Shown piece by piece: positions 1,265-10,979 of a stretch of 53,757 bases of DNA. The translations under genes and the position numbers were made by a program. Within the stretch, counting starts at the first letter, position 1. The number at the start of each line of letters is the position of its first letter. The DNA comes from Acidobacteriota bacterium (GTDB lineage Bacteria > Acidobacteriota > Thermoanaerobaculia > Thermoanaerobaculales > Sulfomarinibacteraceae): contig WGCW01000152.1 of the NCBI GenBank assembly GCA_015493585.1, positions 1 through 53,757 of the forward strand, read 5' to 3'. The notes below the pieces were generated by a model. The model made no database searches. It was given only the letters and a program-made list of their open reading frames with translations, and was not told the origin of the DNA.

Positions 1265-1726
1265 TTACGACTGCAACGCTGCCGCCTGGGAGGGGCCGGT
1301 TCGAGAGGGTTGGGAGAGCTGATCGAGGATGCTCTGGCTCAGGATTTCCCGGTAGCCACGCCCGTCTGCGGACAGGTCCGGATGGCCTTCGACGGTGATC
1401 CAGGCGTGGCAGAGCCGGATGTCCCCGTCGAACCCGAGACCAAGGTGGAACTCCGGCTCGAGGCCGCACCGTGACAGGAGGTCGAGGAGCAACAGCGAGC
1501 GTTTGAGGCATCGTCCCATCCGGTGAGGAGGCAGGAAGCGCAAGGCCCGGTCGACGATCGCCACAATCAGGTGCGGGTCACGCAGCACTTCAGGGAGCCG
1601 TGTCACAGAAGATAGCCGCGCGGGCAGCTCGTCGAGGCTGTACCTCCGGAAACCGGCGCTCACCCGGGCGGCAGCAAGGCCGATCCATGGCAGGAGCAAG
1701 ACCGCCCGGGGAGGAATACCTCTCAT
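1265..1726 (-). CDS. McjB/lasso-B2-type transglutaminase-fold peptidase
   Basis: A 153-residue protein with the hallmark of the Transglut_core3 / lasso peptide B2 family: GRCLKRSLLL, then LGLGFDG and CHAWITVEGHPDL. This gives the expected catalytic set Cys73, His107 and Asp117. In lasso-peptide systems this domain removes the leader peptide from an RRE-bound precursor; here the same leader-protease role is inferred. The start is the ATG after AAGGA (9-nt spacing), with an in-frame TGA upstream. It is the last gene of a block with a radical SAM enzyme, an HPr-kinase-like protein and a PqqD-like protein. No asparagine-synthetase-like lasso cyclase is present, so the product is not expected to be a classical lasso peptide. 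Confidence 0.82.
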   Translation of the reverse strand: MRGIPPRAVLLLPWIGLAAARVSAGFRRYSLDELPARLSSVTRLPEVLRDPHLIVAIVDRALRFLPPHRMGRCLKRSLLLLDLLSRCGLEPEFHLGLGFDGDIRLCHAWITVEGHPDLSADGRGYREILSQSILDQLSQPSRTGPSQAAALQS

Positions 1727-1862: not shown

Positions 1863-2888
1863 TTAGGCGCCTCTCAGGTGCCGGCGCTCGATGGCTTCAG
1901 CGAAGTCACACGCGCTCTTCGACGGCCCAAGGAGGTCGCCGTCCTCCACCAAGGCTACGGCGTGGCAACGTCCACAGTAGTCCAGCTTCGTGCATGTCGA
2001 GCATTTCTTGAGGCTTTGCGGTGTTATTGATCGCAGCCTTTGAAACCACGGCGAACCTTCCCAGATTTCCCTGAAGCTTTGCTCGTTGAGGTTGCCAGCG
2101 GCACCGGGGAGAATGGTGCATCCCCGTACCTCGCCGGAGGCCGAAATGGCGGCGTAGCGGACCCCGGCAGCGCAGAGCGGCTCATCCGGATCGATCCTTC
2201 CGGCCTCATTTTCCGGGAGCAAGCAGGTAGACCTCCCAATTTCGTGGAGTGCCACCGCCTCATCGGCGGGCAAGCGAAGCTGAAGCGGTTCTCGATTGCC
2301 GTCCTTTTTTGCAAAGATGGAGGTGTAGACCTTGGCTTCGACCCCCAGCCGGTGGGCCAGCTCGGGCACCGACCGGGCCGCGTCCCGATTGAGGGTCGTG
2401 ACCGGAACGGTCAGCTCAACAGATACGTTCCGGCGGGCGAGACGCTCCACGGCGGCAAGCACCCGCTCGAAGGAGCCGTTGACTCCGGTCACCCGGTCGA
2501 AGGTTGCGGGGTCGGCGCTATGGAAGCTGATCTCCACGTGGAGGGAGAGCGCAGCCATGATGTCGGCCTCCGCTTCGCCGATGAGGGCGCCGTTGGTCAG
2601 AAGCATCACCTGAAATCCCAGCTCGCGGGCGCGGCGGGCGATCTCAGCCCAGTCGTTTCGCAGCAAGGGCTCGCCTCCGGTCAACGCCAGGAAGAGCGTT
2701 CCCATCCCGGCTAGCTCATCAAGGAGAGCGAAGATGCGTTCGGTAGACAGCCCGTCGCGCGCTTCAAAGTCAGGGATGTAGCAGTGGGCGCAGCGGAAGT
2801 TGCAATGATTTGTGAGCTCGATGGCGACATCCAGTGGGATGTGCTCCCGGGCCGCTCGCCGAACCAGGTTGACGAAGGGCGAGGTCAT
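1863..2888 (-). CDS. Radical SAM/SPASM peptide-modifying enzyme
   Basis: 341 residues. The radical SAM cluster motif CxxxCxxC is present as Cys29, Cys33 and Cys36, followed by the SAM-binding GGEP near residue 71. The C-terminal third holds a SPASM-like auxiliary-cluster set: Cys239, Cys257, Cys296, Cys299, Cys305, Cys308 and Cys327. Enzymes of this layout (PqqE, AnSME, sactipeptide and ranthipeptide maturases) act on peptides or proteins and usually need an RRE/PqqD partner, which is encoded two genes upstream. The start ATG overlaps the TGA of the HPr-kinase-like gene (ATGA), implying coupled translation. Function as a RiPP maturase is inferred from domain and context; the bond formed cannot be told. 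Confidence 0.88.
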   Translation of the reverse strand: MTSPFVNLVRRAAREHIPLDVAIELTNHCNFRCAHCYIPDFEARDGLSTERIFALLDELAGMGTLFLALTGGEPLLRNDWAEIARRARELGFQVMLLTNGALIGEAEADIMAALSLHVEISFHSADPATFDRVTGVNGSFERVLAAVERLARRNVSVELTVPVTTLNRDAARSVPELAHRLGVEAKVYTSIFAKKDGNREPLQLRLPADEAVALHEIGRSTCLLPENEAGRIDPDEPLCAAGVRYAAISASGEVRGCTILPGAAGNLNEQSFREIWEGSPWFQRLRSITPQSLKKCSTCTKLDYCGRCHAVALVEDGDLLGPSKSACDFAEAIERRHLRGA

Positions 2889-3646
2889 TGAGTGGGCTCC
2901 GTGATGACATCCCAGACGCCGGGGTCCTTTCGGAAGCCGAGGCGGTAGACCGGGACTTCTTGGACCAGCCGCGTCAGGGTCGTAAAGGCGGCCATCATAG
3001 CATTCGCATTCTCGGTAGGCCAGCAGATGTGGCGGCGCAACTCCCGGACGGCCTCACCAGGGGCGATGCGAGTGCGCCGGTGGGAGGTGGCGTGCTCGAG
3101 GATGAAGACGCTGGCCAGAGGAGCCGATCCGGGCCGGGCGACCCAGTAGGGGAGGGAAACCCCTTCGAAACCACCGTCTGTGGGCCGGATTGCGGCCAGC
3201 TCGTCGCACAGGGCATGTTCGGGGAGCATGGCGGCCAGGGTACTCTTGCCGGCGCCCGATTGGCCGCAGCAGAGGTAGGCCCTTGATCCATCGCGCAGCA
3301 GGGTTCCGTGCACGACCAGGGAGGGTTCCAGAAGAGCCGGTAAGACCTCGATCAGCACCGTATCGAGAAATCGAGGGTGGCACGCTCCCTTGAGGGTAAT
3401 GCGTTGTTGTGATGGAGAGGTGGAAAAGGCCGCTTCCCCGGCATCAGGCCGATGAGTGACAAGAATTGAGGCCTCTTCTTCCGAGAGGAAGGCAGAGAAC
3501 CGGTTCTTATTCCATGCCAGCCAGTCTGTGTCGGGCGATGCCACTTCGAGGATCAACCCGGAGATGTTGACTTTGAAGCCTCGTGGGGAGGCTGGAGAGG
3601 TCGAGCTTGTACGTGCCGCCGAGCTCTGGAGCGCTGGAGCCATCAC
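2885..3646 (-). CDS. HPr-kinase-like P-loop protein of the RiPP block
   Basis: About 253 residues with a Walker A motif GQSGAGKS at 128-135, a preceding HG pair at 113-114 and an acidic CDELAAI segment near 147, the arrangement of the HPr kinase/phosphorylase C-terminal fold. It is clearly distinct from the true HprK encoded at 44527-45534. Relatives occur next to PqqD-like and B2 proteins in lasso-peptide clusters, where one characterised member phosphorylates a C-terminal Ser of the precursor. The gene begins GTG then ATG and overlaps the upstream PqqD-like gene by 4 nt; downstream it overlaps the radical SAM gene by 4 nt. A role as kinase of the peptide tail of the upstream protein is a reasonable guess, not shown by the sequence. 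Confidence 0.78.
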   Translation of the reverse strand: MMAPALQSSAARTSSTSPASPRGFKVNISGLILEVASPDTDWLAWNKNRFSAFLSEEEASILVTHRPDAGEAAFSTSPSQQRITLKGACHPRFLDTVLIEVLPALLEPSLVVHGTLLRDGSRAYLCCGQSGAGKSTLAAMLPEHALCDELAAIRPTDGGFEGVSLPYWVARPGSAPLASVFILEHATSHRRTRIAPGEAVRELRRHICWPTENANAMMAAFTTLTRLVQEVPVYRLGFRKDPGVWDVITEPTQ

Positions 3647-4056
3647 TGCTCGGGGTTCGTGCTGCAGATCGTGCTAACGCCGGGATACTTGGCGCACGAT
3701 GCCCCGGCGAAACGCCGAATCTCCTCGCGCCATGTGATACGCGGATCGGCGGGGCCGACAGGCTCTTCAACGTCTTGTTGAAACTCGGCATCAGTCACAA
3801 TGAGCCCCTCGCGTGCCAGGCCGGCAAGGAAAGATTCAAGAGACCGGCGCATAATGTCCTCAGTGCCAGCTTCTCTAGGAAGGAGGCGCACGAGATTCTC
3901 GAACGTGGTTGAGTCACCAATCGCTTCCCAGATCCGTCCTCCGGGCTTGTTCAGGCCGTACATCATCTTGTTGGCGAGGTGAATGACGATCGTTTCTCCC
4001 CCAACCGTTCGCCACGCGAGCCCAGATGCCCTTGTGATCTGCATCTCCATCCTCAT
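3643..4056 (-). CDS. PqqD-like RRE protein with Cys-containing C-terminal tail (candidate fused precursor)
   Basis: 137 residues. Residues about 5-90 look like a PqqD/RiPP-recognition domain: GETIVIHLANKMMYGLNKPGGRIWEA followed by helices and GLIVTDAEF. The family is usually about 90 residues, so residues 91-137 are an extra tail. The tail holds WREEIRRFAGASC, then Cys121 and Cys131 nine residues apart, and ends ICSTNPEQ with several Ser/Thr. It is the only short Cys-bearing peptide encoded in the block. The tail is truly in frame, because its TGA overlaps the next gene's start. AGGAGGG lies just upstream; Met1 is very close to it, so Met3 (4050) may be the real start. The RRE assignment is good; the precursor idea is inference. 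Confidence 0.75.
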   Translation of the reverse strand: MRMEMQITRASGLAWRTVGGETIVIHLANKMMYGLNKPGGRIWEAIGDSTTFENLVRLLPREAGTEDIMRRSLESFLAGLAREGLIVTDAEFQQDVEEPVGPADPRITWREEIRRFAGASCAKYPGVSTICSTNPEQ

Positions 4057-4115: not shown

Positions 4116-4664
4116 TTACTGCTCGATGAAGAAATATACCGCTTGCGGGCATGGTTTGCTCGCCCCGTCCAGAACGATTTGGACTTTCCATTTGCCGTAC
4201 AGCGAGTTGGTAACGATCGTGGTTCCAGCGACTGGGAACTGGATATCCACGCTGTCGTACGTTCCGTGATTGTACGTCACGGAATGCGGGGCTTTGATCC
4301 GGACGGGGTAGGGGTACCCTGTCAGCCGCCGGCTGCCCATCGGCGTGTGCCCCTTCTGGGGTGCGACGGGGACGTCGAGTTGCTGGTACAGGAACCCGTG
4401 TGGGGTGTAGATCTTCAGCGTCACGACATGGTCCTTGTCCAACTTGCCGTGAAAGAGCACGTGAAACACGAGGTCGGTCGTTTTGGTGGCCGAAAACCGG
4501 TTCCGGCTGAGCTGGTTTGGCGTCTCGACGGCACTGACGACAACCTGGGGACAGGTCGAAACCGGAGGCCCAAGGTAGCCGTGTGTCTGGGCAGAGACTG
4601 GAACGCTGGAAAGGGCGATGCCACCAGCGAGAACGAGCACAAAGCCAATCGAACGATATTTCAT
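4116..4664 (-). CDS. Small secreted protein of unknown function
   Basis: 182 residues with a clear Sec signal peptide: Lys/Arg start, hydrophobic LVLAGGIALSS core and a likely cleavage after VSA at about residue 25. The mature part is rich in beta-type sequence (VVTLKIYTPHG, TIVTNSLYGKWKVQIVLDG) with two Cys that could form a disulfide. I do not recognise the family; it may be an Ig-like or similar beta-sandwich domain. Only 9 nt separate it from the stop of the giant FN3 protein upstream, and 59 nt from the PqqD-like gene downstream, so it is probably co-transcribed with both. Its start is preceded by GGAGGCACC. Confidence 0.6.
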   Translation of the reverse strand: MKYRSIGFVLVLAGGIALSSVPVSAQTHGYLGPPVSTCPQVVVSAVETPNQLSRNRFSATKTTDLVFHVLFHGKLDKDHVVTLKIYTPHGFLYQQLDVPVAPQKGHTPMGSRRLTGYPYPVRIKAPHSVTYNHGTYDSVDIQFPVAGTTIVTNSLYGKWKVQIVLDGASKPCPQAVYFFIEQ

Positions 4665-4673
4665 GGTGCCTCC

Positions 4674-7600
4674 TTACTGAAGCGGGAGCTGGATTCCGTA
4701 GATCGCGCCAGATTCCGATCCAACGTAGGCGGTCTGATTGACGACGTCGTACGCCGGACAACCAATGGCCGCAGATCCGTCTCCAAGCGTCACCGAGGTC
4801 ACGATCGAGCCGGCCGCGGTATTGAGCTGATAGAGCTTACCGTCGCCCGATCCAACGTAGAGGTTTGTCGCACCGAGGACGAAGAGCGGACTGGATGGTG
4901 AGCTGATGCCGGTCTGCTGCCAGGCGAGGTTTGCCGATGTGCCGTTATCTGTCAGCGCCCAGACGTCATTCGTCGTGGAGAAGAAGAGCTTGCGCGGCGT
5001 GGAGGACGTGAACTCAGGCCAGATGTACCCCTTGACCGGGCCATCGTTGGTCGCGTAGGACCAGATCGTTTGGCCGTTGGAGGGATCGATCGCATACACG
5101 GTGCCGGAGTTGTTGCCCACATAGAGCCGGTCTCCATACAGGATTGGCGCTCCATCGATGTCACCCAGTGGAACCGACCAGGCCTTGCTCAAGCTGGTTC
5201 CATTAAAGCTCAGGCACCACAACGTATCAGATGACCCCGTCGAGCTTTCACGGCTGGCGAAGTAGATCCGGTTGCTTGCGTAATCCACGGTGGCGGCCGA
5301 CGAGATGATTCCGATGGCGTTCGAGCCACCGCCGTTATTGAAGCTTGTGATGGTGTGGCCATCCGACGGGTCGAGCATGTACATCGCGTTGTCCGCGTCG
5401 GCATCGCGTGAGCCGACGAAGAGGAGGTTATAGGCACCGCCGAAGTCCGTGAAGATGCCGGCCGGGGCGGCAAGCAGGATGTTGGCGAGCTGATCGCTCT
5501 GCCACAACGTCGAGCCGTTTTCGGCATTGGCCGCATAGACGTGACCATCCTCGGAGCCGAGGAAGACGACCAGGCTGGCGCCGGACACCACGCTGGTCGG
5601 GACGACCGGTGGCCGCGCATCAGCCGCACCGTTCATGGCCATCGGCTCCCAGGAGAAGTTGCCGGTCCGTGGCCAATCGCCCCCGGTTCCCGCGGGGTTC
5701 ATGGCGTGCAGCACACGGTCGTTGGAGACCGCCCATGTGGCGCCGGTTCCTGCCGCGCCTGGGTACACGCCATTCGGTGCCATCGAGGTCGCAGCAGAGC
5801 TGTACGCCCACTTGACCTTGCCAGACGTGTCGAACGGTGTCGCCGAGACGGTCTTGACCGGCGAGAGGTTACCCGCACCATCGTCGACGAATGCCGTGTA
5901 GTAGTACGTCGTCCCATTGGTCAGGCCGGTATCGGTGTAGGTATCGTAGGCCCCGGTTGTGCCGGTCTGATCAACGATCGGCGTGCACGACGACGCATCG
6001 GGATAGCCGGAGGTGTCGCGGCAGATCTTGGTCGAGCCGTAGACACCGCCCGACGGATTGACCCACTCAAGCTTGACCTGCCCCGACGTTGCGCGGGCGG
6101 TGAAGCTCTGCAAGGGTTCTGATGTCCCAGACGAGCAGGTGGAACCGACGTTTGTAACGGTGACGTCGTCGATGAGCCAGCCGACATAGTTGTTGTACTG
6201 AGAGTCGACCGAATCAAAGGTGAATCGGATGATCATATCGCTCGGCGAGGCGGGGGGTGAGAGGGCAATATCACCAGACGCTGTCCAGGCTTTCTCCGAG
6301 CTATCAGCGCAGTCCTCATACCACACCTGCGTCCACGATGATCCTCCGTCGTATGACACCTCGACCTTTGTAATGTCATATCCACCACCGGAATAGGACT
6401 CGACTTCGCGCCAGTACTCGAAGCTCAACGTGGATGACGATGTAACGCCGGATATTGTTGGAGATGTCAATGTACCGGTCGTTGTCGAACCGGTATCGTA
6501 ATCACAGCTCGAATCCTGACCGTAATACCACGAATGGGTTCCCGATGTGGCAGACGGGCTGACACAGCCTGTGTTGTTCACCTCGTGCCACAAGCCGGTT
6601 CCACTCCAGCCGGTCGAGCCGGACTCGAAATCTTCAGTCCAGGTGGTGTTTCCTGCCACGCCGCTCTTTTCGACAGTGTTGGTATCTTCGAAGCCGCCGT
6701 TACAGGCACCGCCATGGCCAACCGAAGAGTCTTCGGCCCGGACGATGTAGTAGTACGTCGTGCCGCCGGCAACCGTCGTGTCTTCGTAGTAGAGGTTGGT
6801 CACGCAGCTTGCCAGCAGGTTCGACGAATCGGGGGTGAAGCCGGACGTTGTCGACCGGTAGACGTTGTAGACGATCGATGAGCCATCCGAGCAATTCGAG
6901 GTCGCGGCGTTCCACTCGAGCCGGAGCCCACACGTGCTACCGGACATCGCAGTGACCGACTGGAGACCGTCGAACGTCGGCGGTGACCCGACGTTGTCGG
7001 CGGCCGAAGCCGTTGTACCACCGTCGGTGGAACAGCCGTAGCCATTTGCCGCCTGGATGCTGTAGCTGTATGTGGTTCCGTTCGTTCCCGTTGTGTCGAC
7101 GTACGATGTCGTGCCTTCGGAGACGTTGCTGGCGATCGCGCTGCCACCGCGCAAGACGGTGAAGCTGCGGCTTCCCGTGCCGCCATCGTTCCAGGAAGCT
7201 GGCGTGTTCCACGTCAGCACGACGCCGGTGTCGTCGCAGGCATCGCGGTCGGTCGCGCTCTGGATCCCGCCGAAGGCAAACGAATGATCCGCATCGGCCC
7301 CAGCGGTGCCCGCCGACCATGCGCTCGTGCTGCTGCAGTTGTCATTGACCGCCTGCACGGTGTAGGTATGTGAGGCGGTGTCGCCCGGCGTGTCGGTGTA
7401 GCTCGTTCCAGAGATGCCGGTCGCCACCGTCGTTCCATCGCGAGCGACGTTGTACGAGGTCGCGTTGGTTGCGGCGCCCCACGACACGCTGACACCGCTT
7501 GAGGCGCACGCCGAGATGTCACTGACACTCGGGGCACCTGGCGTGGCCGGGGTCGCGTCGGCATCCGATGCCGAGGTCGCCGCCGACCAGGCACCGGTGC

Positions 7601-10600
7601 ACGTCGAGTTCGTGCCGCGCACCTGATAGGTGTGCGACGCGGAGTCACCGGGGTTGTACGAGTACGGGCTGGTGACGCCGGTGATTGTCGTTGCTCCGTC
7701 GATCAGGAGGTCATACGAAGTCGCTCCGCTGACCGAGCTCCAGCTGATTGTCACGCCGGTCTGTGCGCACTGGTCGTCGTCACTGACGCTGGGCGCTGCG
7801 GGCGTGGCCGGGGAGTTGTCCTCATCGGTGAAGCTCTGAGCGGCGCTGTCGGTGTAACAGCTCCCATCGACCGCCCGGATCACGTAGCTGTGGGAGTTGG
7901 TATCGCCCGGGTTGTACAGCGCACCGGACGTGTAGTTACTGACAGCTAGCGTACCGTCGACGTAGAGATCGTGGCTCGTTGCGCCAGATCCCGCCGTGTA
8001 GTTGACATGCACACCGTCCTGAGCGCACGCGCTGTTGTCAGTGATGCTCGTAATGACCGGCTGGCCCGGATCGGTGCATGAGGAACCGGTTGTGCAACTG
8101 CTCGCTGTTGCGACGTTGGTGAGCTGAATGTCGTCGATGTACCACGTGCCACCGGCGTTCGACGAGTCACACCCCATCCGCCAGCGGATCAAGACGTCAT
8201 CGTTGGCGTAGCTGGAAAGATCAACGACCACCTGCGTGAACGACGACTGAGTCCCCGACCACGCCGAACGTCCACCGAGCGGATTGCTGTAGTTCGACGA
8301 GATGGTCGAGTTGTAGCCGCCGGTGGTGATGTCCGAGCCGAGATCCGACCAGGTGCTTCCCCCGTCGGTAGAGATCTCGATGACGCCACCATCGTAGGTG
8401 TTCTCAAAGTCGTACTGGTGGTAGAACGTCAGTTGGGCGTTGGAACCGAGGTGTTTTGATGGGAGCACGAGCCACTTATCGGTGACAGTCGAAACGTCGT
8501 CCGACGCGAAGGACTGAGAGCCTCCGGACGTGTGATTCGCCCCGGTGTCCACGCGCCAGTCATCGGTTCCTTGTGCAGCATCATGGGCGTAACCCACGGC
8601 AACCGCATCGGCGATCGTCGAGTACGACTCAACGTCATCGCTCCACGTCCCAGTGGACGCGGGCCCCGTCGGTGTCCCGCTCTTCTCGACGGTGTTTGTG
8701 TCCTCGGCGCCGTTACCGGTATCGACGGCCCGAACGATGTAGTAGTAGGTCGTGCCGGAAACCAGGCTATCGGTATCCGAATAGCTCGTTCCGGTCACGC
8801 CGGTCGCGATCTGGTTGCCGGAAGCCGGTGTGAATCCCGACGTCGTATCCCGGTAGATGTTGTACGTGACGCTGTTGCCACACTGGCTGGTCGCCGCGTT
8901 CCAGGAGAGGTCGAGGGTGCAGGTCGTATCTTGCGGATTCGTGACCGATTGCAGCCCATCAAAACTCGGAGCCGCCGTGCACGCACCGGTCGCTGTGGCC
9001 GACGCTTCCGGCGAATCATCAGACTCACAGTCTCCGTTGTACGCCCGCACGACGTAGTAGTACGTCGTGCCGCCGCTGACGTTGGTGTCGCTGTATGCCG
9101 TCGAGGTCGATGTCCCAATCTCGGTGTACGGCCCACCCGACGTCGTCGAACGGTAGACGTGGTATTCCGTGGCATCCGATACGCTGCTCCAACTCAGATC
9201 GATCCGGTTGTCACCGTTCGGAGTTGCCGAAAGCGAAGCAGGCGCCGTTTCGGTACAGATCGAGCAGTCCGAATACTTGAACGAGGCGATGCGAGTATGC
9301 CACTTGAAGTCATCGGTCGTCGTATAGTACTCCTGCGTGTACCAGAAGGTGCAGTCGTCCGACGGATCGACGCTCATCGAGGAGTAGTCACCCCACCGGC
9401 TGTGCCCGTTTTGTGATCCAGTTCCGTCGACGATCTTCGTTTCAGCCTGAGTCATCTGGTTGAGCGGGTCACCGGCTAGCCTCCCCGTGTAATAGATCGA
9501 TGGGTACACGGACGAGCCATCGGACTTACTGAATCCAAGGGCTATGTTTCCCATGTGATCCATGGCGATCGAGCCCATCCAGCGGGAGGTGCTGTCCGGT
9601 TCGTACGTTCCCGATTGGTAGATCGTCGGCGTGCCGTTGGGATCCCGGATTTCGTACCACCTGACGGCGCTGTCGGCAGATGAGCCGGTGATCGAGTGGT
9701 TCACGACAAGCGATTCGTGATCGCCCGGGAAGTTCCGGTACGCGAGACGATACATCATCCTGTCGGCGAGTGAATCGAGCTGTTGGCTGACGCCTGGCTG
9801 TGGGATACATGTGCCCCCGCTACACGCTTCAGAAAAGTTTGCAACACTGAGCGTCGTTGGGCCGTCCAGGTGAGAGTTGCTCGAGTTACTCCAGTCGATA
9901 GTGAGTTTCCAGAAGAGAATGCTTTGTCCATCGCCTCCCTTGGCGACGACGTATTCGGGCGAACCAGACGGCGGCTGGTTGGGGCCATCCATATCGGCCG
10001 GGAGCAATCCGCCGTAGCTCGAGTACGGCCCAAAACACTGGGTCGCCGCTGTGGCATCACCGTTGATCATGGCGGTCCGGTCATAGGCGCAGATCTCTCC
10101 CCCGTCCCAGGTGCTGCCGTTGGCAAACATATTGTAGGTGATGTAGTAGCCGTCCGGCCAGACGCCCATCTTGGGATAGTCGTTGAAATCAGAGAATGCA
10201 TACTCGTACAGATAATACGACCCAGTGGGATCGGATGTTTGGGAAACAGCGATACACTGATAATAATGACTCTTATCATCTGTTTGCGAGACCGCGAACT
10301 GTGTCATGATCCAGCGGTTCGCCATTTGATCGTACTGGACAATCGGGTCACCGTCGTTGTCATCAGCACATTCGTTGCCTGATCCGAGGCTGCTCCAAAG
10401 GGTATTCCCAGCAGCGGGTCCGTATGCCACGCTCCCATCGGACTTATTGAAGATGGTAAACATCGTGTTCGTCCACTGGACGTAATAATTGAGGCCAACA
10501 TCACCCTCAGTATCCGGTGGCTCACTTGCAATCGTGTAACCAGACAGTCCATCTCCGCCACCTTCAAAGTTCATGATTGGCGCCGAGACGGAATTGTCAG

Positions 10601-10979
10601 TGCCGGCATTGGTCTGATCGGCGAAATTGACGTGTGATGGGCCTTTCCCAGCCGTTGGAGAATTTGGTGGCATATTGATGCCCTCGGGAAGCTCATGCTC
10701 GGGCATCAGATGAATCTTCTTTGGAACGGGGAGCGGCTTAATCGTGCGCAGCGGCGGGCTGACTGCGAATGCGACCGGTTTGTAGACGGTCGCGCCTTGT
10801 TTTTGTGGCGGGCTGCCGCCGTGCCATTGCGCAGTTGCAACCGGGACCACTCCAAACATCACAAGGCCTGGGAGAATACACAGCATCACCCATTTCCTGA
10901 TGCGGACGGTGAAGCGATTCCAACGATTGTCAGGCACACAAACGCCGCTGACCTGTTGTGTGTTCTTGGTTTCAAACAT
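4674..10979 (-). CDS. Giant secreted multidomain protein (propeller-like head, FN3/Ig repeats, two jelly-roll domains, PQQ-type beta-propeller)
   Basis: 2101 residues. A long basic N-terminus is followed by a signal sequence (about 32-50, cleavage near ATAQ). Residues about 120-570 form a large domain rich in Trp, Asp and aromatic residues that I cannot name. FN3-type repeats with the TTYYYIVRA strand motif follow from about 576. A choice-of-anchor/MAM-like beta-sandwich (WYIDDIQLTNV end) spans about 776-958. Several Cys-containing Ig/FN3-like repeats fill about 960-1350. A second FN3 plus sandwich pair ends with GWLIDDVTVTNV near 1610, and a PQQ-like propeller (GSEDGHVYAANAENG-type blades) fills about 1720-2101. 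The start follows GGAGGGG. It is likely a cell-surface or released adhesin-like protein; no LPXTG, PEP-CTERM or type IX sorting tail is visible. Confidence 0.85.
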   Translation of the reverse strand: MFETKNTQQVSGVCVPDNRWNRFTVRIRKWVMLCILPGLVMFGVVPVATAQWHGGSPPQKQGATVYKPVAFAVSPPLRTIKPLPVPKKIHLMPEHELPEGINMPPNSPTAGKGPSHVNFADQTNAGTDNSVSAPIMNFEGGGDGLSGYTIASEPPDTEGDVGLNYYVQWTNTMFTIFNKSDGSVAYGPAAGNTLWSSLGSGNECADDNDGDPIVQYDQMANRWIMTQFAVSQTDDKSHYYQCIAVSQTSDPTGSYYLYEYAFSDFNDYPKMGVWPDGYYITYNMFANGSTWDGGEICAYDRTAMINGDATAATQCFGPYSSYGGLLPADMDGPNQPPSGSPEYVVAKGGDGQSILFWKLTIDWSNSSNSHLDGPTTLSVANFSEACSGGTCIPQPGVSQQLDSLADRMMYRLAYRNFPGDHESLVVNHSITGSSADSAVRWYEIRDPNGTPTIYQSGTYEPDSTSRWMGSIAMDHMGNIALGFSKSDGSSVYPSIYYTGRLAGDPLNQMTQAETKIVDGTGSQNGHSRWGDYSSMSVDPSDDCTFWYTQEYYTTTDDFKWHTRIASFKYSDCSICTETAPASLSATPNGDNRIDLSWSSVSDATEYHVYRSTTSGGPYTEIGTSTSTAYSDTNVSGGTTYYYVVRAYNGDCESDDSPEASATATGACTAAPSFDGLQSVTNPQDTTCTLDLSWNAATSQCGNSVTYNIYRDTTSGFTPASGNQIATGVTGTSYSDTDSLVSGTTYYYIVRAVDTGNGAEDTNTVEKSGTPTGPASTGTWSDDVESYSTIADAVAVGYAHDAAQGTDDWRVDTGANHTSGGSQSFASDDVSTVTDKWLVLPSKHLGSNAQLTFYHQYDFENTYDGGVIEISTDGGSTWSDLGSDITTGGYNSTISSNYSNPLGGRSAWSGTQSSFTQVVVDLSSYANDDVLIRWRMGCDSSNAGGTWYIDDIQLTNVATASSCTTGSSCTDPGQPVITSITDNSACAQDGVHVNYTAGSGATSHDLYVDGTLAVSNYTSGALYNPGDTNSHSYVIRAVDGSCYTDSAAQSFTDEDNSPATPAAPSVSDDDQCAQTGVTISWSSVSGATSYDLLIDGATTITGVTSPYSYNPGDSASHTYQVRGTNSTCTGAWSAATSASDADATPATPGAPSVSDISACASSGVSVSWGAATNATSYNVARDGTTVATGISGTSYTDTPGDTASHTYTVQAVNDNCSSTSAWSAGTAGADADHSFAFGGIQSATDRDACDDTGVVLTWNTPASWNDGGTGSRSFTVLRGGSAIASNVSEGTTSYVDTTGTNGTTYSYSIQAANGYGCSTDGGTTASAADNVGSPPTFDGLQSVTAMSGSTCGLRLEWNAATSNCSDGSSIVYNVYRSTTSGFTPDSSNLLASCVTNLYYEDTTVAGGTTYYYIVRAEDSSVGHGGACNGGFEDTNTVEKSGVAGNTTWTEDFESGSTGWSGTGLWHEVNNTGCVSPSATSGTHSWYYGQDSSCDYDTGSTTTGTLTSPTISGVTSSSTLSFEYWREVESYSGGGYDITKVEVSYDGGSSWTQVWYEDCADSSEKAWTASGDIALSPPASPSDMIIRFTFDSVDSQYNNYVGWLIDDVTVTNVGSTCSSGTSEPLQSFTARATSGQVKLEWVNPSGGVYGSTKICRDTSGYPDASSCTPIVDQTGTTGAYDTYTDTGLTNGTTYYYTAFVDDGAGNLSPVKTVSATPFDTSGKVKWAYSSAATSMAPNGVYPGAAGTGATWAVSNDRVLHAMNPAGTGGDWPRTGNFSWEPMAMNGAADARPPVVPTSVVSGASLVVFLGSEDGHVYAANAENGSTLWQSDQLANILLAAPAGIFTDFGGAYNLLFVGSRDADADNAMYMLDPSDGHTITSFNNGGGSNAIGIISSAATVDYASNRIYFASRESSTGSSDTLWCLSFNGTSLSKAWSVPLGDIDGAPILYGDRLYVGNNSGTVYAIDPSNGQTIWSYATNDGPVKGYIWPEFTSSTPRKLFFSTTNDVWALTDNGTSANLAWQQTGISSPSSPLFVLGATNLYVGSGDGKLYQLNTAAGSIVTSVTLGDGSAAIGCPAYDVVNQTAYVGSESGAIYGIQLPLQ

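Follow-up and report, generated by a model that had tools for sequence, protein, structure and literature searches.

A lasso-type RRE probably fused to its own RiPP precursor in Acidobacteriota

Results

The window, a stretch of 53,757 nucleotides of acidobacterial contig WGCW01000152.1, carries a minus-strand operon in which one gene very probably encodes a lasso-B1-type RRE joined to a RiPP precursor, the latter made up of a P-x-[I/V]-x-W leader remnant and a Cys-bearing core (Table 1). This reading was built on four computed, sequence-based results, i.e., the homology of the tail to free precursors of related clusters, the syntenic slot that the two forms share, a single apparent origin on a tree of the radical SAM (rSAM) enzymes, and the loss of an aromatic anchor from the leader. 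The genes of the operon are ordered propeller protein, sec182, RRE-tail, HprK-like kinase, radical SAM/SPASM maturase and B2-like protease. Since the GGAGGG ribosome site of the fused gene lies only 2-3 bases 5' of ATG-4056, M3 (4050) is the likelier start.

Table 1. Features of the minus-strand operon in the window
Feature	Position	Strand	Basis or remark
Large secreted protein, FN3-like, with C-terminal PQQ/BamB-type beta-propeller	4674..10979	-	PF13360 E 2e-14, above cut-off; PF13570 E 1e-18, below cut-off
sec182, small secreted beta-rich protein	4116..4664	-	No Pfam match; cassette-linked
RRE-tail fused gene, 137 aa ORF	3643-4056	-	Open and in frame
PqqD/RRE domain, residues 1-88	3793..4056	-	PF05402 and lasso_PqqD model
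Hypervariable linker, residues 89-104	3745..3792	-	Column identity and length spread
Putative precursor-peptide tail, residues 105-137: P-R-I-T-W leader remnant, then Cys-bearing core	3646..3744	-	Free-precursor homology
Cys121 codon	3694..3696	-	Cys in 18/21 fused tails
Cys131 codon	3664..3666	-	Cys in 21/21 fused tails and 13/13 free precursors
Stop codon TGA of fused gene	3645-3643	-	Overlaps GTG/ATG start of HprK-like gene
HprK-like kinase, P-loop GQSGAGKST	2885..3646	-	TIGR04352 E 4e-5; overlaps stop of fused gene
Radical SAM/SPASM maturase	1863..2888	-	PF04055 E 1e-24; PF13186 E 3e-9
Lasso B2-type transglutaminase-fold cysteine protease	1265..1726	-	PF13471 E 1e-11; NF033537 E 3e-9

Residues 21-86 of the fused protein match PF05402 (PqqD) above its cut-off (E 5e-9) and residues 5-87 match the NCBIfam lasso PqqD model (E 6e-8), with an NF033536 score for the RRE of 32.8 bits, below the cut-off of 80. 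The best Foldseek matches to the AF2 model of the RRE are lasso RREs, the top one and nearest solved structure being TbiB1 bound to its leader (5v1v; TM (target) 0.85), so that sequence (PF05402) and fold alike place the domain in the PqqD-like winged-helix family. About 49 C-terminal residues follow it, with Cys at positions 121 and 131, which agrees with the extra Cys-bearing tail reported in a preliminary description of this DNA; the last residue is Gln, not Ser. AlphaFold2, run with six sequences, gave an ordered RRE and an ordered strand at residues 107-109 (pLDDT 84 for residues 101-110), with pLDDT below 50 for residues 114-137, a predicted pattern that corresponds to a leader/core split within the tail.

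The preliminary description also held that the tail is not a simple frame error, and our results bear this out. The in-frame stop of the fused gene overlaps the start of the HprK-like gene and therefore speaks against a frame error, and a read-through artefact was ruled out along with it by the persistence of the tail in 21 loci, at a length of 29-36 residues, and by tail dN values of 0.01-0.06 against a much higher dS of 0.43-1.23 in the three closest pairs.

These 21 loci, all from Acidobacteriota, were collected by a genome search, two profile searches and the examination of gene neighborhoods. The full-length RRE-tail architecture occurs in the window's family and in several others; the named records that carry it are acidobacterial, two of them labelled Thermoanaerobaculia or Thermoanaerobaculales. 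Beyond this phylum the search comprised one narrow contig scan, which, run with the closer alignment set (A3), returned five loci, all Acidobacteriota, and the distribution may be wider; a scan of IMG/VR gave no match. An HprK-like gene lies directly downstream of the fused gene in every locus, and the radical SAM/SPASM gene was found in 20 of the 21, the remaining contig ending before it. Conversely, G016 has the rSAM gene without a visible fused gene because its contig begins inside HprK.

The tail could be aligned end to end in 12/12 of the first homologues, with P105, W109, G118, C121, C131 and P135 invariant. Among nine members of the window's family, mean column identity was higher in the tail (0.72) than in the RRE (0.61) or the linker (0.37), whose length ranges from 15 to 31 residues across the 21 fused proteins. 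The preliminary description had proposed a check of whether the Cys positions and adjacent rSAM genes are conserved among homologues and had counted homologues with the same neighbors but without the tail or its Cys residues as evidence against the fusion. The rSAM gene proved to be kept, as did the last Cys, which none of the 34 sequences lacks (21 fused tails plus 13 free precursors). The objection applies in part to the first Cys, which is present in 31 of the 34 and absent from three of the fused tails (L091-L093). Since the last Cys is thus the more constant, it would be a better candidate than the first for the rSAM reaction. The three exceptional tails (from G108, G105 and G104, respectively) end in SPPQ...NPQC, and that of L092 also retains the WxxP of the free precursors.

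In f21, another acidobacterial family and a sister lineage, six loci (L115, L118, L131-L133 and L135) have a free peptide directly before the HprK-rSAM pair, i.e., in the slot of the fused gene. These peptides are 40-50 aa long with the pattern WxxPxIxW...C...C (e.g., MSATQNEKKKTWIRPAIEWEEDYEPVVFAASCTSEAFNCGGGAHS and MKTDNPQPAKTWEKPAIEWEERYEPVVFAASCTSQPFNCGAGARG). On contigs of sufficient length, sec182 lies before the free peptide, and the RRE is a separate gene, devoid of a tail, upstream of sec182; L118 and L115 show the complete order RRE, propeller protein, sec182, peptide, HprK, rSAM. One genome, G009, has both forms of the cluster, fused (L035) and free (L051).

Profile comparisons in both directions connected these peptides with the tail. 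When a profile of 19 fused tails was run against 5277 ORFs from 22 non-fused loci, the top matches were short peptides of rSAM/HprK/PqqD clusters (E 2e-6, 2e-5 and 3e-4); an example is ...RKRAYEKPAISWQEMLEVRKTLAVACAKVAGRSAICTQFPTS, encoded just upstream of a tail-less PqqD in a PqqD-rSAM-HprK cluster of the same class. Some free members matched weakly (E 0.05-1.7), and similarities between single tails and precursors are short (33 residues). A profile of free peptides only, run against 6589 ORFs (>=20 aa) of the 21 fused loci, returned the fused gene in all of its 16 best matches, the window's own at the top (E 3e-5), and hhalign aligned fused tails with free peptides at 97% probability (E 8e-11). 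Neither the tail nor the free precursors have a Pfam or NCBIfam model.

We also considered, and rejected, a separate precursor hidden in the fused clusters, as no other precursor was found among the 6589 ORFs of the 21 loci with either profile: both recovered fused genes instead, and the tail profile matched fused genes alone. This bears out the earlier remark that, apart from the tail, no short Cys peptide is encoded next to the maturase. Judging from synteny and profiles, the tail is a former free precursor and forms one family with the free peptides. The preliminary description had asked whether a recognizer is fused here to its own substrate and had regarded a separate precursor gene in relatives as evidence to the contrary. 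Such genes were indeed found, but the relatives that have them all carry an RRE without the tail, and they therefore support the fusion. Through the homology of its tail to motif-bearing free precursors, the cluster also has a precursor related to ones with an RRE-binding motif, as is expected of an RRE-dependent pathway.

Discrete lasso-type RREs bind the leader motif [Y/W]xxPx[L/V/I/F/A], of which the aromatic residue and Px[I/V/L] fill two pockets, and mutation of the motif weakens binding (PMC13381572). We found [Y/W]xxPx[I/V/L] in 13/13 free precursors vs. 1/21 fused tails (L092, as WxxP), a contrast with a Fisher p of 1.5e-8 among sequences that are related and not independent. P-x-[I/L/V]-x-W, by comparison, is retained in 20/21 fused tails; in L114, Ala replaces Pro. 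Loss of the aromatic anchor is consistent with a leader that the RRE need not capture from solution any more, and we suggest that this anchor was lost in the fused form because the leader is tethered.

In a maximum-likelihood tree of the rSAM proteins, rooted at the midpoint, 20 fused loci form one clade (98/96). Its sister is the f21 free-precursor lineage (L115 and L118), with a further two free-precursor groups branching outside the pair. One fusion event is the simplest reading of this topology.

Two secreted proteins are encoded upstream. The C-terminus of the propeller protein recurs upstream of the cassette in most fused loci while its N-terminal part varies; that of L045 appeared, by eye, to be S8-type protease-like. 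sec182 was present in 19/20 cassette genomes vs. 2/129 others of the class, and both of the latter have free-precursor clusters. The link of both proteins to the cassette is a strong association. No Pfam or NCBIfam model matches sec182, its AF2 model is all-beta with low confidence, and a fold search gave weak immunoglobulin-like matches at most. Since it has a signal-peptide-like start, sec182 is likely to be exported and thereby separated from the cytosolic enzymes. This bears on an improbable alternative, namely that the tail imitates a leader within the RRE's own chain and fills the RRE groove in a regulatory or stabilizing role, while the real substrate is another protein, e.g., sec182 or the propeller protein. 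The nearly perfect co-occurrence of sec182 with the cassette would suit such a role, as would the P-x-I-x-W segment, which varies less than most of the tail and is predicted to form a strand. However, the probable export of sec182 tells against it, the Cys-bearing end of the tail is also conserved and matches complete free peptides through the last Cys, and 20/21 tails lack the aromatic anchor expected of a good RRE ligand.

The enzymes of the cassette are each recognizable by domain but differ in how closely they fit named models. The HprK-like kinase scores 22.7 bits against a cut-off of 200 for TIGR04352. Kinases of this kind in paeninodin-type pathways phosphorylate the C-terminal Ser of the precursor (PMC9266682); a C-terminal Ser is found in 14/21 fused and 8/13 free peptides, the window protein not being among them. 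The maturase exceeds the cut-offs of both PF04055 and PF13186, and P0003 has CX3CX2C as CNFRCAHC together with a SPASM Cys pattern. Against the curated maturase models shown, the window rSAM falls well short of every cut-off. That the enzyme has these cysteines of its own weighs against a very improbable reading of the tail as an accessory to it, in which its two Cys, as a disulfide or as ligands of a metal or an Fe-S cluster, would help the radical SAM enzyme. The two Cys conserved in most tails and the rSAM/SPASM partner are consistent with that role, but the first Cys is missing from L091-L093 and the same Cys peptide is free in relatives.

The B2-like protease scores above the cut-offs of PF13471 and NF033537 and keeps the CLKRS and HAW motifs. 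Together with the match of the RRE to a lasso model and the lasso leader motif of the free precursors, this could point to a conventional lasso-peptide pathway whose B1 protein is unusually long. We consider this scarcely credible, since no lasso macrolactam cyclase (Asn synthetase-like) domain was found among the seven main ORFs of the first 11 kb of the window, a radical SAM/SPASM enzyme stands in its place, and the tail is the sole precursor candidate; for want of a cyclase among these ORFs we do not class the pathway as a lasso peptide, although its RRE, B2 and leader motif would act as their lasso counterparts do.

B2-like genes follow the fused cassette genome-wide (18/20 cassette genomes vs. 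2/129 others of the class). The gene is adjacent in 14/20 assessable fused loci; where it is not, a similar B2 is encoded at another place in five of the six genomes. It is absent from four f21 free-precursor genomes. Therefore, recruitment of B2 may have come with the fusion, perhaps for release of the core. A competing and rather unlikely possibility is that the tail is modified and never released, so that the cross-linked or phosphorylated RRE-tail protein would be the final product or a carrier. In its favor are the fused clusters without a neighboring B2, the absence of B2 from the four sister genomes, the lack of an apparent transporter among the main ORFs of the cassette, and a tail conservation unusually high for a RiPP core. 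Against it are the genome-wide distribution of B2-like genes and the occurrence of the homologous peptide in relatives as a free product of 40-50 aa, from which it follows that the peptide needs no RRE body.

Discussion

If the fused gene is an RRE joined to its precursor, as we consider very probable, the tethered leader segment would dock in an RRE groove, either within its own chain or on a partner chain, and the docked protein would present the core to the radical SAM/SPASM enzyme and the HprK-like kinase. The former may use the conserved Cys, a thioether, as in sactipeptides and ranthipeptides, or another cross-link being plausible, the latter might phosphorylate the core, and the B2-like cysteine protease would then sever the core from the RRE. 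As to the product, we put forward, as speculation and with considerable doubt, a modified peptide, conserved and non-diversifying, that would act together with the secreted propeller protein and sec182 as a peptide-derived cofactor or a conjugated surface module and not as a secreted antibiotic. If true, the pathway would unite a fusion of RRE and substrate with a destination new to RiPPs.

The cassette shares traits with several known systems. It resembles the lasso B1/B2 systems of the paeninodin type, with PadeK, in the fold and sequence of its RRE, its B2 match, its HprK-like kinase, the leader motif of its free relatives and a frequent C-terminal Ser, but differs in its radical SAM/SPASM enzyme, in having no cyclase found in the cassette and in the fusion of precursor to RRE. 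With linear polyphosphorylated peptides (LPP; PMC13381572) it has in common a discrete lasso-like RRE, an HprK-like kinase, the lack of a cyclase and a YxxP leader. However, LPP pathways have a signal-peptidase-like leader peptidase, an NTP transferase and a separate precursor, and their described conserved set is without rSAM (PMC13381572), so that they differ from the window cassette on each of these points. PQQ, mycofactocin and other PqqD-rSAM/SPASM RiPPs likewise combine an RRE with a SPASM radical SAM enzyme and have a strongly conserved core, but no PqqA- or MftA-like precursor was seen here and the rSAM lies below the curated cut-offs shown. The nearest precedent for fused vs. split precursors is that of the borosins, in which the precursor is fused to a pathway protein in types I-III and separate in the 'split' type IV (PMC8429565); in borosins the fusion partner is the methyltransferase that modifies the peptide, whereas here it is a recognition domain. 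We found no RRE-precursor fusion in the open-access literature, which has RREs separate or fused to enzymes or other domains.

Mining for a short precursor ORF beside an RRE would miss fused clusters. Since the fused and free forms occupy the same slot in sister lineages and the fusion appears to have one origin, they constitute a natural experiment on the purpose of leader recognition: once the leader is tethered, the aromatic anchor goes and P-x-I-x-W stays. The fusion would remove the usual binding step and illustrate the evolutionary rewiring of RiPP pathways, and it may offer a ready-made RRE-substrate tether for peptide engineering.

Two further observations were made. A third group of free precursors (PRI[LV]..E...C...ISS) occurs beside HprK-PqqD-rSAM clusters (L044:7006-7269, L048:8501-8719 and L104:5981-6187) and is apparently a related RiPP type to which no Pfam or NCBIfam model gives a name. 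In the window itself, a short motif (CTCAGGATGACA / GTCATTCTGAG) recurs many times, on either strand, across the intergenic positions 690-1260, which resemble a dispersed repeat array.
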